Position numbers and translations under genes: made by a program
NCBI GenBank assembly: GCA_024743055.1
Contig: JANSXH010000002.1
Location: 243,496 to 307,495, forward strand
Source: Pseudomonadota bacterium
GTDB lineage: Bacteria > Pseudomonadota > Alphaproteobacteria > Sneathiellales > Sneathiellaceae
Length of the DNA: 64,000 bases
Reading direction: 5' to 3'
Part shown: piece after piece, positions 13,975-47,978 of the stretch
Position numbering within the stretch: position 1 is the first letter of the stretch
Layout of the letters: each line of letters opens with the position of its first letter
The notes under the pieces: generated by a model
Told to the model about the DNA's origin: nothing
The model's database searches: none
What the model saw: only the letters and a program-made list of their open reading frames with translations

Positions 13975-14751
13975 ATGGAATGGAATTTTCTTGCCACGAT
14001 TGGTCGCGTATTTATCAGCTTCATGGCAGCTGTCGGTCGGATTACGAAATTCACAGGCCAGAGCCTGAGACATTGCATCATTCCGCCCTTTTATCTTCGC
14101 CTTTTCCTCCGCCAGATCATGAACATCGGCTATTATTCTCTGCCGGTCGTCGGCATGACGGCGCTGTTCACAGGTATGGTGCTCGCTCTTCAGATTTATG
14201 TAGGCTCTTCCAGATTTAACGCGGAAAGTGCTGTTGCGACGATTGTTGTTATCGGCCTTACCCGTGAACTTGCACCGGTCCTTAGCGGCTTGATGGTGGC
14301 TGGACGTGTCGGTGCCGCCATTGCCGCAGAAATCGGGACCATGCGGGTGACGGAGCAGATTGATGCCCTGGTCACCTTGTCGACCAATCCGTTTAAATAT
14401 CTGGTGGCGCCTCGCCTGCTCGCCGGTTTGATCACCCTGCCCTTTCTGGTGCTGATCGCCGACATTATCGGCGTCTCAGGCGGCTATCTCGTCGCTACGG
14501 AAACCCTTGGCCTCAATCCCGGCAACTATCTTAAGAACACTTTCCAGTTTCTGGAAGTACGCGATGTGGTATCCGGATTGATCAAGGCCGGTGTCTTCGG
14601 ATTCATTGTGTCCTTGATGGGATGCTATCACGGCTTTAATTCCACGGGCGGTGCGCAAGGTGTTGGTAAGGCGACGACCAATGCGGTTGTGTCCTCCTTC
14701 GTACTTATCCTCATCAGCGACTATTTCCTGACCGTTCTTCTGATCGACTGA
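13975..14751 (+). CDS. mlaE: MlaE/PqiA-type ABC transporter permease
   Basis: VGRVGAAIAAEIGTMRVTEQIDALVTLSTNPFKYLVAPR signature. Confidence 0.92.
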   Translation: MEWNFLATIGRVFISFMAAVGRITKFTGQSLRHCIIPPFYLRLFLRQIMNIGYYSLPVVGMTALFTGMVLALQIYVGSSRFNAESAVATIVVIGLTRELAPVLSGLMVAGRVGAAIAAEIGTMRVTEQIDALVTLSTNPFKYLVAPRLLAGLITLPFLVLIADIIGVSGGYLVATETLGLNPGNYLKNTFQFLEVRDVVSGLIKAGVFGFIVSLMGCYHGFNSTGGAQGVGKATTNAVVSSFVLILISDYFLTVLLID

Positions 14752-14753
14752 CG

Positions 14754-15530
14754 ATGGGCGCCACTCCAAAAATTGAGTTAAAGAAAGTCTGCAAGTCGTT
14801 TGGCAGCAAGGTCGTTCTGAAAGACCTTGATCTGTCTGTCGCGGATGGTGAATCCGTGGTGGTAATTGGCGGATCCGGGACCGGTAAATCGGTCATGCTG
14901 AAATGTATTCTCGGTCTTCTTAAACCTGATAGTGGTGAGATCCTGATTGATGGTCAGCCAATCATTGATCAACCCTCCCATATCCGAGAGAAAATTCTTC
15001 TTAAAACGGGGATGCTTTTTCAATATGCAGCTCTGTTTGACAGCCTGCCCGTATGGGAAAATGTCGCCTTTGGATTGATGCAGGCCCACGGCATGAAACG
15101 GAAAGCGGCAAAGGAAATTGCGATCGAAAAGCTCAGCCTGGTTGGTCTCGGTCCAGAGCTCGCAGAAAAAAATCCGGCAGAGCTCTCCATTGGTATGCAA
15201 AAACGTGTGGGCCTCGCGCGGGCTATCGCAGCAGATCCTGAAGTGATATTTTTTGATGAGCCGACAACCGGCCTCGATCCCATTATGGGGGATGTGATAG
15301 ATAGCCTCATCCGTGATTGTACGCAGCGCCTGGGAGCCAGTACCCTGACCATTTCCCACGACATGGAAAGCGCGCAGAAAATTGGTGACAGGATCGCTCT
15401 TCTCTATAAGGGGAATGTCGTTTGGTCAGGCCCGGCAAAAGAGATTGAAACCTGTGGTAATCCCTATGTGGAACAATTCGTTCGTGGGGACGTAGACGGA
15501 CCGATAAAACTGGATATTCTTAAGCCGTAA
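14754..15530 (+). CDS. mlaF: Mla-type ABC transporter ATP-binding protein
   Basis: GGSGTGKSVMLKCILGLL Walker A, LSIGMQKRVGLARAIA signature, FFDEPTTGLDP Walker B; coupled to mlaE. Confidence 0.92.
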   Translation: MGATPKIELKKVCKSFGSKVVLKDLDLSVADGESVVVIGGSGTGKSVMLKCILGLLKPDSGEILIDGQPIIDQPSHIREKILLKTGMLFQYAALFDSLPVWENVAFGLMQAHGMKRKAAKEIAIEKLSLVGLGPELAEKNPAELSIGMQKRVGLARAIAADPEVIFFDEPTTGLDPIMGDVIDSLIRDCTQRLGASTLTISHDMESAQKIGDRIALLYKGNVVWSGPAKEIETCGNPYVEQFVRGDVDGPIKLDILKP

Positions 15531-15591
15531 GGGCTGAAGATCTTTTGAGACTTACCGGCCCTAGCCGGAGCACAAACTTACGGAATATTGC

Positions 15592-16971
15592 ATGGCGAAA
15601 AATGCCGAACAATTCACCTGTCAATCCTGCGGAGAGACTTACCGAAAGTGGCAAGGACGCTGTGATTCCTGTAGTGAATGGAATTCGCTGATTGAAGAAC
15701 GGATCGAAGAGGCTGTCCCAAAGGGCCTGTCTACTGGCAAAGGCCGTGACATTACTTTTACAGCCCTTGATACGGACATAGCTGAGCATAGCCGTAATCT
15801 CAGCCAGCTGGCAGAGCTGGACCGGGTTCTGGGCGGAGGTTTTGTTCCCGGCACGTCTATCCTCATTGCTGGCGACCCCGGCATTGGCAAATCAACCCTG
15901 CTGCTGCAAGTCGTCGGGAAAATGGCCCTAGAGGGTCTTCCGTGCACTTATATCTCTGGTGAAGAAGCCACAAAACAGATTACCTTGCGGGCAAGGCGTC
16001 TCGGCCTCGATAAAGCCCCGGTGCAGTTGGCCTCTGCGAATTCTTTGAGGGATATCGTTACGAGCCTTGAGAAAGGACCTCCGCCAAAGCTGCTCGTCAT
16101 CGATTCCATTCAAACCTTGTTTGCGGACAATCTATCAAGTGCGCCTGGCACTGTCGCTCAAGTACGGGCTTGCGCGCAGGAACTGATCCGCCTTGCCCGG
16201 AAAACAAGCTGCAGCGTCATTCTGGTCGGCCATGTCACCAAGGACGGCCAGATTGCCGGACCGAGAGTGCTTGAGCATATGGTCGACACAGTGTTGTATT
16301 TTGAGGGAGATCGTGGCCACCAGTTCCGCATCCTCCGTGCAGTAAAGAATCGCTTTGGCGCTACGGATGAAATCGGGGTCTTTGAGATGACAGACACCGG
16401 ATTGCAGGAAGTCGCCAACCCTTCATCGTTGTTTCTGGGCAACACGGATCTGACGGTCAGCGGAGCCTCCATTTTCGCAGGCATGGAAGGTACCCGGCCC
16501 CTCCTCGTAGAAATCCAGGGCCTTGTGTCGGCGTCTCCCCAGGCCACCCCGAGACGTGCTGTCGTTGGCTGGGATTCGAGCCGACTTGCCATGATCCTCG
16601 CAGTCCTGGATGCCAGGTGCGGACTTTCCTTTACCGGAAGTGAGGTCTATCTCAATGTTGCCGGTGGGTTGCGGGTCAATGAACCCGCTGCAGATCTTGC
16701 CGTGGCCGCTGCGCTGATTTCATCTGTTTCTGATATTCCGGTGCCGGAACGAAGCATTCTATTCGGAGAGATCGGTTTATCAGGAGAGATCAGAGCTGTC
16801 GGTCAGACCGAAGCCCGATTAAAAGAAGCTGCCAAGCTCGGGTTCGAAAACGCCATAATTCCCCGCGGCAGTAAAATAAAAGACAGCAGTTTGAAGATTA
16901 TTGAAGTGGACCACTTGCGGGAAATAGTTAGTCTGTTCACACAGTCCAAACCGGTCACGCAAGTAGTGTAG
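15592..16971 (+). CDS. radA: DNA repair protein RadA/Sms
   Basis: CQSCGETYRKWQGRCDSCSEWNS zinc finger, GDPGIGKSTLLLQ, KNRFGATDEIGVFEM. Confidence 0.96.
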   Translation: MAKNAEQFTCQSCGETYRKWQGRCDSCSEWNSLIEERIEEAVPKGLSTGKGRDITFTALDTDIAEHSRNLSQLAELDRVLGGGFVPGTSILIAGDPGIGKSTLLLQVVGKMALEGLPCTYISGEEATKQITLRARRLGLDKAPVQLASANSLRDIVTSLEKGPPPKLLVIDSIQTLFADNLSSAPGTVAQVRACAQELIRLARKTSCSVILVGHVTKDGQIAGPRVLEHMVDTVLYFEGDRGHQFRILRAVKNRFGATDEIGVFEMTDTGLQEVANPSSLFLGNTDLTVSGASIFAGMEGTRPLLVEIQGLVSASPQATPRRAVVGWDSSRLAMILAVLDARCGLSFTGSEVYLNVAGGLRVNEPAADLAVAAALISSVSDIPVPERSILFGEIGLSGEIRAVGQTEARLKEAAKLGFENAIIPRGSKIKDSSLKIIEVDHLREIVSLFTQSKPVTQVV

Positions 16972-43938: not shown

Positions 43939-45558
43939 CTAGGCTCTATCCTCCAATATCATCTTAGCGGCCTTCTCCGCGATCATGATCACCGGAGAAT
44001 TTGTGTTTCCCGAGGTTATGGTCGGCATGATGGACGCGTCGACAATGCGAACCCCGTCAAGGCCATGAACCTTCAAACGATCGTCAACAACCGCCATTGG
44101 ATCGTTCCCCATCTTACAGGTCCCAATCGGATGGAAGATGGTCGTGGCGATATTCCCCGCTTCCCGAACTAAATCTTCGGTGTCCTGAATATGGGTCCCC
44201 GGCAGCATCTCTTCCGGCTGAAATCGTTTCACAGCCTCCGTCGCCATTAATTGGCGGGTCAGTTGGATTGATTTTGCCGCTACCTGCCGGTCCCCTTCGG
44301 TGGAAAGATAGTTCGCCTGGATGGCAGGTTGATCAGAGACATTTCGGCTTTTCAGATGAATTGATCCCCGACTTTCCGGTCGCAGATTACAGACAGAGGC
44401 TGTCACCGCCGGAAAGTTATGAAGCGGCTCTCCGAGTTTATCGGTGCTGAGGGGCTGCACATGATATTCAAGGTCCGGTGTCTCCAGGCGCGGATCGCTC
44501 TTGGCAAATATCCCCAGCTGGCTCGGCGCCATAGACAGCGGTCCTTTCTGGAACAAAAGATATTCAAGGCCCATCCCGACTTTCCCCATCAGGCTATTGG
44601 CCCGCTGATTGAGGGTTTCCCCGTTCTGGATTTTGAAAACCGTTCGGATCTGCAAATGATCCTGAAGATTTTCACCAACGCCCGGCAGTTCGTGGTGACA
44701 GTCCAGTCCAAAACCGGACAGCAGCTCGGGCTGACCAATACCGGAGAGTTCCAGGATTTTCGGACTATTGACGGCCCCAGCAGCGACGATTACCTCCCGC
44801 CCCGCCGTCGCCAGGGCTGGTTTGCCGGCGGCAGTAAATTCAACACCAGTGACTTTCGAGCCCTCCAGAATCAGGGCTTCAGTCTCAGCCTGTGTCATTA
44901 CCCGCAAATTAGGGCGACTGCGTACTGGTTTCAGAAAGGCTTTGGACGTATTCCAGCGAATACCCTTTCGCTGATTAACCTCGAAATAGCCGGAGCCTTC
45001 GTTATTGCCGGTGTTGAAATCATCAGTCTTCGGCACGCCAAGTTCCTCGGCTGCGTCGCGAAAAGCATCTAGAATTTCCCAGGACAGCCGCTGGGTTTCA
45101 ACCCGCCATTCTCCGCCAGAGCCATGCATGTCAGAAGGTCCACCGTGATAATCTTCCGATTGCCTGAAGAAGGGCAGCACATCTTCCCAACCCCAGCCGT
45201 CATTGCCAAGCTGCCGCCACTGGTCGTAATCCCGTGCCTGACCTCGCATATAGATCATGCCGTTGATAGAGGAACAGCCGCCGAGCACCTTGCCTCTCGG
45301 ATAGTCAAGAGCACGACCATTCAGACCCGGGTCAGACTCCGTCTTCATCATCCAGTCAGTGCGCGGATTGCCCATGCAAAACAGATAGCCGATGGGGATA
45401 TGGATCCAGTGATAGGCGTCAGATCCGCCTGCCTCTAGCAGCAGGACCCGGTTTGCCGGATCAGCAGACAGGCGGTTTGCCAGCACACATCCAGCGGATC
45501 CCGCGCCAATGATGATATAATCGTAGCTTCCCTCATCCTGTCTTTGCGATGCGATCAT
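43939..45558 (-). CDS. GMC family oxidoreductase (choline/alcohol dehydrogenase-like)
   Basis: DYIIIGAGSAGCVLANRLS, GKVLGGCSSINGMIYMRG, PIGTCKMG, VDASIMPTITSGNTNSPVIMIAEKAA. Confidence 0.93.
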   Translation of the reverse strand: MIASQRQDEGSYDYIIIGAGSAGCVLANRLSADPANRVLLLEAGGSDAYHWIHIPIGYLFCMGNPRTDWMMKTESDPGLNGRALDYPRGKVLGGCSSINGMIYMRGQARDYDQWRQLGNDGWGWEDVLPFFRQSEDYHGGPSDMHGSGGEWRVETQRLSWEILDAFRDAAEELGVPKTDDFNTGNNEGSGYFEVNQRKGIRWNTSKAFLKPVRSRPNLRVMTQAETEALILEGSKVTGVEFTAAGKPALATAGREVIVAAGAVNSPKILELSGIGQPELLSGFGLDCHHELPGVGENLQDHLQIRTVFKIQNGETLNQRANSLMGKVGMGLEYLLFQKGPLSMAPSQLGIFAKSDPRLETPDLEYHVQPLSTDKLGEPLHNFPAVTASVCNLRPESRGSIHLKSRNVSDQPAIQANYLSTEGDRQVAAKSIQLTRQLMATEAVKRFQPEEMLPGTHIQDTEDLVREAGNIATTIFHPIGTCKMGNDPMAVVDDRLKVHGLDGVRIVDASIMPTITSGNTNSPVIMIAEKAAKMILEDRA

Positions 45559-45786
45559 TATTCCCTCGAGTTCAGTCCGATAAGTTAACTTATCCAGCTA
45601 TACTGAATATGCAACACCCCTAGGTCACGGACCCGTAACTACCGTCTTTAACAATTGAGTAACAGTATTATCATATATATTAAGCTGTTGTGGGGTTCGG
45701 TTTCGCCGTTGGCCCATACAGAAGTAGTCATCAGCATGAAGGCATGCCGATATGCTTATGAAACTGTTTAGAAACAGGAAGAAATA

Positions 45787-45912
45787 ATGAGATTTACCAG
45801 ACGCAACTTTTTCAATCTGATTGCAGGCGCCTTCATGGCCATGGGGATATCTACAGACGCGATCCGCACCAAGGTTCGCGGGGGTTGGGTCCTCAGGGAG
45901 GATGATACGTAA
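45787..45912 (+). CDS. 41-aa twin-arginine signal microprotein
   Basis: Hand translation MRFTRRNFFNLIAGAFMAMGISTDAIRTKVRGGWVLREDDT*; RRNFF Tat motif plus hydrophobic stretch; TAA overlaps the next ATG (TAATG). Confidence 0.65.
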   Translation: MRFTRRNFFNLIAGAFMAMGISTDAIRTKVRGGWVLREDDT

Positions 45913-47339
45913 TGCGTATGGAAGTCTCCGATCTTGACAGTGCTGGCCAGTTTGATTTTTGTGTTATCGGAACGGGGCCTGCTGGAATTACGACCGCGAT
46001 GTCTCTTGCTGCAGATGGCAAACGCGTTGCTCTGCTGGAAGCAGGCCAGGAAGAATATACCGAAGAATCCCAGGATCATTACAAAGGTACGATTGTCGGC
46101 GATGAGTATCTTGACCTCGAATTTACTCATCTGAGGTATTTTGGCGGTACATCCAATCACTGGGGTGGCTGGTGCAAGACACTTGATGCCATTGATTTTG
46201 AAGGAAAAAAAGGCTTTCCCGACACCGAATGGCCAATCCGAAAGACCGACCTTGATCCCTATCTGAAACAAACGGCGGAAATTCTTGAAGTTCCATTGTT
46301 CAAACCGGACATGCCATTAGCCAACAGCGGATTTAAGAGCACGGATTTCACTTTTTCACCGCCTGTTCTCTTTGGGGAAAAATATGGCGACGCCTTGAAG
46401 GCTGATCCAAACATCGCTCTAGTGTTTGATGCTGCCTTGACGGCCTTTGACACCAATGGCGCGGCTATCACAGCCGCCAAGATCAAGGATTCTCAAGGGG
46501 CGGAATATAGTGTGCATGCCGATCGGTACATACTTGCCACTGGTGGTATCGAAAACAGCCGTCTGCTTCTCTGGGCCAACGCGCAAAGCAATGACCAGAT
46601 TGTCAAGAATACCAAATCCCTCGGCCGTTACTGGATGGAACATCCTGCCTTGCCGGTTGGCGATGTATTGATGACGACAGAATTCGCCAATTCGGTCATG
46701 CAAGATGGGATAGCCTTCATTAGTCCCTCCGCCGAGTGGATCTCGCAAAATGACGCACTCAATTGCTTGTTATATTTGGAGAGTATGACCTATAGAGGTG
46801 TTAAAGCCATGATTGCTGACGTTATGTGCGTGGCACCAGACTTTGGACGTTGGGCCTTTCAGCAGGTCAACAAATCCCTCTATTGCGGCACTAACTTTAG
46901 ATGCGGAGTTGAGCAGCTTCCGCTTGAGAAAAACCGCATAGAACTCTCTGACGAGCTGGATAGCTCCGGCATGCCGCGAACTATTCTATATTGGACTAAA
47001 GGCGAGGCAGAGTTGCAGTCATTTCGCAAGGCCGCCCGTGGATTGGCCGACTATATGGCAAAAGCCGACGTTGGGCGGGTTCATCTCAGGCCCTGGGTCC
47101 TGAGTGATGGAAGTTATCCGAAAGAATATGACGATGTCCCTGGCCACCATATGGGAGGTACCCGTATGTCTGATAACTCAAACCTCGGGGTTGTTGACAG
47201 AAACTGCAAAGTCCACGGCCAGGAAAATCTGTACGTTGCCGGCTCATCTGTCTTCACAAGCGGCGGCTATGCCAATCCGACATTTTCCATTGTTCAGTTG
47301 GCGCTAAGGCTGTCGGACCATTTGAAATCTCTTAGTTAA
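45912..47339 (+). CDS. GMC family oxidoreductase, no signal peptide
   Basis: DFCVIGTGPAGITTAMSLAADGKRVALLEAG Rossmann motif, FGGTSNHWGGWC, GHHMGGTRMS, YVAGSSVFTSGGYANPTFSIVQLALRL. Confidence 0.9.
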   Translation: MRMEVSDLDSAGQFDFCVIGTGPAGITTAMSLAADGKRVALLEAGQEEYTEESQDHYKGTIVGDEYLDLEFTHLRYFGGTSNHWGGWCKTLDAIDFEGKKGFPDTEWPIRKTDLDPYLKQTAEILEVPLFKPDMPLANSGFKSTDFTFSPPVLFGEKYGDALKADPNIALVFDAALTAFDTNGAAITAAKIKDSQGAEYSVHADRYILATGGIENSRLLLWANAQSNDQIVKNTKSLGRYWMEHPALPVGDVLMTTEFANSVMQDGIAFISPSAEWISQNDALNCLLYLESMTYRGVKAMIADVMCVAPDFGRWAFQQVNKSLYCGTNFRCGVEQLPLEKNRIELSDELDSSGMPRTILYWTKGEAELQSFRKAARGLADYMAKADVGRVHLRPWVLSDGSYPKEYDDVPGHHMGGTRMSDNSNLGVVDRNCKVHGQENLYVAGSSVFTSGGYANPTFSIVQLALRLSDHLKSLS

Positions 47340-47369: not shown

Positions 47370-47672
47370 TCAGTGGATTTTTACGTCGCCCTTGCCCTGC
47401 ACTGATTCGTAGACATGTACATGGTATCCTGCCATTGGATTACGGCCCAGATACTCTTTTAGATAATCCCGACAGGCAGTGCTGGCGTCACGGATCAGAT
47501 ACTGCCAGAGAGGTTCCATGGGGCTGGTCTTGGTATCCATATGCGGGACACTCACTGATCCTCCCCACTCCACATTGAAACCGTTCAGATAATTCTCTGC
47601 ATAGTGACGGAAGACGTCGGCTTCATCGATATTGACGCCGGCTTTATGTTCAAAGCAAAGTCGTAAGTCCAT
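47370..47672 (-). CDS. hypothetical protein
   Basis: MDLRLCFEHKAGVNIDEADVFRHYAENYLNG start internal to listed ORF. Confidence 0.6.
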   Translation of the reverse strand: MDLRLCFEHKAGVNIDEADVFRHYAENYLNGFNVEWGGSVSVPHMDTKTSPMEPLWQYLIRDASTACRDYLKEYLGRNPMAGYHVHVYESVQGKGDVKIH

Positions 47673-47768
47673 CCCAACACTCCTTAAAAGTCTGGCTGCA
47701 ATAAGGTTGCACGTGAGAGCGCATGCCAACGCTCTTCAACATAACATATATAGGGTAGATTAGGGAGA

Positions 47769-47799: not shown

Positions 47800-47874
47800 T
47801 GGCATCCCCTAGGGGAATCGAACCCCTGTTTCCAGGATGAAAACCTGGCGTCCTAACCGCTAGACGAAGGGGAC
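47800..47874 (-). tRNA. tRNA-Glu(TTC), CCA encoded
   Basis: Reverse complement GTCCCCTTCGTCTAGCGGTTAGGACGCCAGGTTTTCATCCTGGAAACAGGGGTTCGATTCCCCTAGGGGATGCCA folds as a cloverleaf, loop TTTTCAT. Confidence 0.97.
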
Positions 47875-47978
47875 ACAAAGTGTCGCTGGAGGCAGGATTT
47901 AACGGTCTTCGCCGGACTTAGCAAGCAAAAAAATTCGCCTCTCCCGTTTTTTTGATAATTTTTTGATTTCAGGCGAAG

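Follow-up and report, generated by a model that had tools for sequence, protein, structure and literature searches.

Our analysis suggests that a 41-aa protein, encoded directly ahead of a GMC-family flavin oxidoreductase in the 64,000-nucleotide stretch of DNA analysed here (the window), quite probably serves the enzyme encoded downstream as a minimal Tat hitchhiker subunit. With somewhat less assurance, it can be regarded as a detachable Tat signal: a signal joined through a short, variable linker to a docking motif of about ten residues, with nothing further, carried by a separate gene that would export one folded flavoenzyme and pared from a larger hitchhiker that sister enzymes still use. 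The features of the pair, all on the forward strand (+), are as follows:

45776–45781 (+): putative SD-like AGGAAG ahead of the microprotein ATG, from the sequence
45787–45912 (+): Tat microprotein gene, 41 aa, MRFTRRNFFNLIAGAFMAMGISTDAIRTKVRGGWVLREDDT; translated ORF with ATG start and TAA stop
45796–45813 (+): twin-arginine motif TRRNFF, microprotein residues 4–9, from the alignment; both arginines (R5, R6) invariant across the family
45814–45849 (+): hydrophobic core of the microprotein signal, residues 10–21, from the sequence
45874–45909 (+): C-terminal tail of the microprotein, VRGGWVLREDDT, residues 30–41; conserved motif, putative docking tail
45895–45902 (+): putative SD-like AGGGAGGA for the GMC start, within the small ORF, from the sequence
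45910–45914 (+): TAATG stop/start overlap, from the sequence and the junctions in relatives
45912–47339 (+): GMC-family flavin oxidoreductase, 475 aa, without signal peptide; PF05199 (C-terminal GMC domain), E = 3e-22
45954–46049 (+): N-terminal FAD-binding Rossmann segment of the enzyme, residues 15–46 (GTGPAG); PF07992; G20, G22 and G25 invariant
47145–47276 (+): stretch with the conserved active-site H412/H413 and N455; invariant alignment columns, GMC His/Asn assignment by analogy

The small gene was first noticed by hand translation in the first-pass annotation, and our translation from ATG to TAA is identical to that one; the twin-arginine motif and hydrophobic core described there are present at residues 4–9 and 10–21, and the reported overlap of the small-ORF stop with the oxidoreductase start is exactly one base (TAA at 45910–45912, ATG at 45912–45914). 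Translational coupling of the two genes through TAATG is probable. The same annotation called the oxidoreductase leaderless, which holds for the missing signal peptide but not for the region upstream of its start, where the SD-like AGGGAGGA sits inside the small ORF. It also had the enzyme beginning almost at its FAD motif, and GTGPAG indeed runs from residue 20, with about 13 residues preceding the Rossmann strand and a start column that lines up across relatives in the alignment; a motif placed so early leaves no space for a signal peptide on the GMC protein itself.

By sequence, the closest solved structures to the enzyme are the BcGDH catalytic subunit (glucose dehydrogenase of Burkholderia; E = 6.6e-50; 6a2u/8grj) and that of Gluconobacter fructose dehydrogenase (FDH; E = 3.6e-39; 7w2j), and by fold the GMC model comes nearest to the FDH large subunit (7w2j); the GMC fold is present with its conserved His/Asn, as in catalytic subunits of the BcGDH/FDH type. 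The genome also encodes TatC (E = 9.7e-66). Taken together, the solved relatives, the Tat hitchhiker precedents and TatC support the prediction of a two-part exported flavoenzyme. A second, divergent GMC gene lies at 43939–45558 on the reverse strand of the window; it belongs to a choline-dehydrogenase-like subfamily (PRK02106, E = 9e-174) and gives no sign of sharing the partner.

The pair is conserved far beyond the window. A scan of the collection with the GMC protein as sole query gave 80 loci with GMC proteins 42–50% identical, spanning Emcibacteraceae-type MAGs, Mesorhizobium, other Hyphomicrobiales, a Pseudomonas, a Burkholderiaceae MAG and a Myxococcales MAG. A small Tat ORF lies directly upstream of the GMC gene in all 80, and its stop either overlaps the GMC start or directly adjoins it. 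The ORF is thus strongly conserved upstream of orthologues, beyond what chance would give; these ORFs carry the RR, a hydrophobic core and a C-terminal motif of the GW[ILV]L type, and are mostly in a different frame from the GMC. The pair is retained in about 100 related genomes. Junctions were parsed automatically in 81 loci, namely 78 of the 80 scan loci and three from related genomes, among them the second pair of the window's own genome; in the two scan loci that the parser skipped (L055 and L067) the ORF was seen directly. The gap is −4 in 69 of the 81 loci, −1 in five, and 0, +1, +2 or +4 in the remainder; the commonest junction is a four-base ATGA, GTGA or TTGA overlap, and TGATG overlaps occur too. 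In three loci (L031–L033) the small ORF and the GMC are in frame with one TAA between them, and in two genomes (L114 and L115) the gene order is reversed, with the enzyme first.

These junctions bear on the possibility, raised in the first-pass annotation, that signal and enzyme are truly one polypeptide, appearing as two through a sequencing indel or connected by a programmed frameshift. A single base between the frames in the window and a single TAA in L031–L033 speak for it; against it, the ORFs are separate in 80 of 80 loci, in many assemblies, with varied frames and with TAA, TGA and TAG stops, and no fused form occurs among the GMC rows examined. A stop intervenes at every locus, so the Tat sequence is never fused in frame with the GMC, and the range of gaps across loci, together with the downstream copies in two genomes, led us to reject a −1 frameshift product. 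As the small ORF stands apart in all 80 loci, neither sequencing error nor frameshift accounts for it, and the single-polypeptide reading retains next to no credibility. The tight stop/start overlap, with the SD-like sequence for the GMC inside the small ORF in the window, would also suit a leader peptide or coupling device that serves GMC translation only and whose product has no role. Such a device is very improbable, however: selection acts at the amino-acid level on both signal and tail; the small gene follows the enzyme in L114 and L115; and longer Tat proteins with the same tail are likewise found downstream of the enzyme in several genomes.

The enzyme profile was run against 385 genomes of the class and 399 of the phylum, and the surroundings of the matches were then scanned: among GMC rows of at least 560 bits, the small gene is directly upstream in 92 of 94, and both exceptions are one locus read twice (L145/L203, genome G615), a tandem GMC copy whose tandem partner has the microprotein. 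The microprotein profile gave four matches below E = 1e-10 in 61 related genomes, each beside one of the four closest GMCs: two in the window's own genome (the window pair and a further pair on contig C13) and one in each of two genomes of the same genus; the remaining matches in the 61 genomes, at E = 3e-4 or above, are partial and cover mainly the signal half of longer frames with ordinary Tat-like signals. In the GMC tree the micro-partnered enzymes form a single clade (the micro clade; support 100/100), which also contains the tandem copy without a small ORF and one contig-end copy, and the window enzyme falls inside this clade in a second, quicker tree. Automatic length labels are unreliable for the longer partners, whose classes were therefore reassigned by eye ahead of tree building, and start codons are uncertain for a few distant members such as L119 and L148. 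Apart from the GMC itself, no neighbour gene is shared across groups in 24 loci, the other clusters linking a few close relatives.

Two of these loci deserve description in their own right. In the second pair of the window's genome (G000, contig C13), the microprotein is encoded at 15512–15658 and the enzyme, 38% identical, at 14008–15498 (9999–11498 in L202); by eye, the pair is near a UbiA-type prenyltransferase-like gene, a gene for a large membrane protein and a 2OG-oxygenase-like gene. The G615 locus (L203, 7612–14682) has two micro-clade GMC genes with a microprotein at only one, and its cluster, with nucleotidyltransferase, epimerase and glycosyltransferase-like genes, reads as one for sugar-nucleotide/surface-polysaccharide biosynthesis.

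The microprotein itself shows two constrained ends joined by a variable middle. An alignment of 22 diverse members shows no change at R5, R6 or W34 and very little at L36 or D40, the RR Tat signal being assigned by motif alone. The tail motif of the family, (N/D)GW[ILV]L[RK]xxD, lies 7–14 residues from the C-terminus; across 91 members the tryptophan stands 7–14 residues from the end, mostly 8 or 9, and the RR-to-W spacing is mostly 27–53 residues. A spacing that varies while the tryptophan stays fixed near the end points to a flexible linker joining the signal to an end-anchored tail. In 59 Mesorhizobium-group loci, the dN/dS values are 0.23 (signal), 0.57 (linker), 0.15 (tail) and 0.12 (enzyme); purifying selection on the tail is thus nearly as strong as on the enzyme. 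A PDB search with the microprotein profile matched nothing but generic Tat-like signals, and structure prediction gave no confident placement of the tail: an AlphaFold model of the L033 read-through fusion (TAA read as G) gave the enzyme a pLDDT of 87, with residues 19–35 below 50; a model from fused and microprotein rows only reached an overall pLDDT of 38; and when microprotein rows were added to the enzyme alignment with MAFFT, the tail tryptophan paired with a WPI motif of the enzyme or the rows scattered.

Our preferred reading of the microprotein as a minimal hitchhiker subunit would work as follows: microprotein and enzyme would be made from a single coupled mRNA; the enzyme would fold round FAD in the cytoplasm; the microprotein tail (VxxGWxLxxxD, at the extreme C-terminus) would bind the folded enzyme; and the RR signal would deliver the pair to TatABC, the enzyme crossing as passenger. 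In effect, the signal peptide of the enzyme would be provided by a second polypeptide. The binding of the tail to the enzyme and the Tat dependence of GMC export are both predictions from conserved sequence, and the enzyme may act in the periplasm on a sugar or glycan substrate; sugar-nucleotide/polysaccharide genes near some members (G615; a Cupriavidus plasmid) hint that the substrate could be glycan-related.

The microprotein might also stay behind as a membrane anchor for the GMC, in addition to exporting it. Between hydrophobic core and tail, an AxA-type motif lies in only 47 of 91 members, and several members, including the window and Emcibacteraceae-type microproteins, lack it; direct membrane contact would moreover make sense in the absence of a conserved cytochrome neighbour of the BcGDH kind (24 loci). 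On the other side, an AxA-type cleavage motif does precede the tail in roughly half of the proteins, and the hydrophobic core of about 12 residues in the window is short for a stable anchor, so we regard a lasting anchor role as unlikely.

The proposed hitchhiker role has precedents among GMC enzymes. The gamma subunit that accompanies BcGDH in its secretion is a Tat hitchhiker, and the hydrophobic C-terminal tail of gamma, which contains a Phe-Trp, lies over the interface "like a lid" (PMC6719666). BcGDH gamma resembles the microprotein as a small Tat-signal subunit for a GMC enzyme without its own signal, and the crystal structure shows its tryptophan-bearing tail packed against the catalytic subunit; it differs in being folded and about 168 residues long (8grj_A), whereas the microprotein is too short for a folded domain, and profile searches gave no significant similarity between the microprotein and BcGDH gamma. 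The BcGDH catalytic subunit also has a 3Fe-4S cluster and a multihaem partner. Profile positions 130–168 face BcGDH residues 151–241, a stretch in which the window GMC is shorter and free of cysteine, making a BcGDH-like 3Fe-4S cluster unlikely; a gene-family comparison of 24 loci showed no conserved neighbour that would encode a BcGDH-like cytochrome subunit. In Collimonas, a GMC enzyme whose small subunit bears a Tat signal provides a weathering activity, for which genes including tat genes are reported, from random mutagenesis, to be essential (PMC12542777).

Hitchhiker gamma subunits are also reported to be necessary for folding of the catalytic subunit (PMC6719666), which would be in keeping with the microprotein being a chaperone that helps the GMC to fold or to load its cofactor, with an incidental RR. 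The invariance of RR in 22 diverse members and the selection on the signal argue against such a role, and we give it little more than a nominal chance.

Two known families of small subunits were compared as candidate homologues. PF13618 (Gluconate 2-dehydrogenase subunit 3) resembles the microprotein in comprising small GMC-associated subunits, several with a Tat signal; neither the microprotein nor the longer partners described below match it, the window's own genome has no member, and hhalign of the microprotein against it aligned only a generic RR segment (prob 10%), leaving the tail unaligned. FdhS (PF12318 FAD-SLDH; 7w2j chain B) is likewise a GMC small subunit with a Tat-like N-terminus, but is much longer (183 aa) and matches in the signal region only; PF12318 gave no match for the microprotein or the longer partners and is absent from the window's own genome, and the GWxL tail is missing in both alphaproteobacterial PF12318 proteins examined. 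Membership of the microprotein in PF13618 or PF12318 was accordingly rejected for want of profile support.

A closer relationship is suggested by the partners of sister enzymes. GMCs outside the micro clade adjoin Tat proteins of about 110–140 aa with an RR signal, located upstream of the GMC in L131–L134, L138 and L201 and downstream of it in L004, L005, L121, L123, L125, L126, L129, L135–L137, L153 and L156. Their C-terminal motif is near DFxxGxxVxxDGWxLxxxEAxLCAL; an example is WP_203102997.1, a "hypothetical protein" of Skermanella rosea, and the longer partners tried had no Pfam or NCBIfam match above cut-off. They share with the microprotein the RR signal, the C-terminal DGW[ILV]L and a gene adjacent to a sister GMC, and differ from it in an extra middle part, a DF element before the tail and a run-on after the motif (EARLCAL); the middle part with the DF element is absent from the micro proteins, which are 39–79 aa long. 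With hhalign, the microprotein aligned to the longer partners in the tail only (prob 83.5%, E = 8.3e-6, 17 columns; signal part unaligned), a single short pairwise comparison that shared architecture and gene context support. Many GMCs outside the clade have no partner inside the 1.5 kb flank, which is not evidence of absence.

The shared DGWxL tail makes the microprotein look like a longer partner pared to its signal and docking tail, and an origin by reduction appears plausible. As the GMC tree is unrooted, the direction from longer to micro is one that we infer; on the sequences compared, the simplest reading would be that the longer partner is the early form and that a single reduction took place at the base of the micro clade. 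The first-pass annotation had suggested a hitch-hiker exporter whose partner is reduced to little more than the signal. The exporter part of this suggestion is supported, with the small ORF conserved and no in-frame fusion in orthologues. The protein is indeed tiny, but what follows the signal is a conserved C-terminal motif common to the longer partners, so the microprotein is better described as a signal plus a probable docking tail.

If this reading is correct, the microprotein would be close to the smallest Tat escort that one can imagine, namely a signal peptide acting in trans through a short docking motif; it would offer a clean test of the minimum that hitchhiker export requires, perhaps a portable tag for exporting folded enzymes in laboratory strains, and a way to recognise exported GMC oxidoreductases whose own sequence hides their location. 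The partner genes are short enough for gene callers to miss, no family in the Pfam and NCBIfam releases searched covers the microprotein, and literature searches found no description of this microprotein–GMC pair.

Several minor observations accompany these results. On a Halomonas plasmid (L199; NZ_CP040452.1, ~1713369–1714750) the GMC frame is apparently in two pieces, through decay or sequencing error, and the upstream microprotein is intact. A scan of viral contigs gave one GMC fragment. In the window, a 104-aa ORF at 47370–47684 on the reverse strand is convergent with the GMC gene and matches no family of Pfam or NCBIfam above the curated cut-off; between the pair and a recJ-like gene, ~47805–47875 on the reverse strand reads as a tRNA gene, likely tRNA-Glu.
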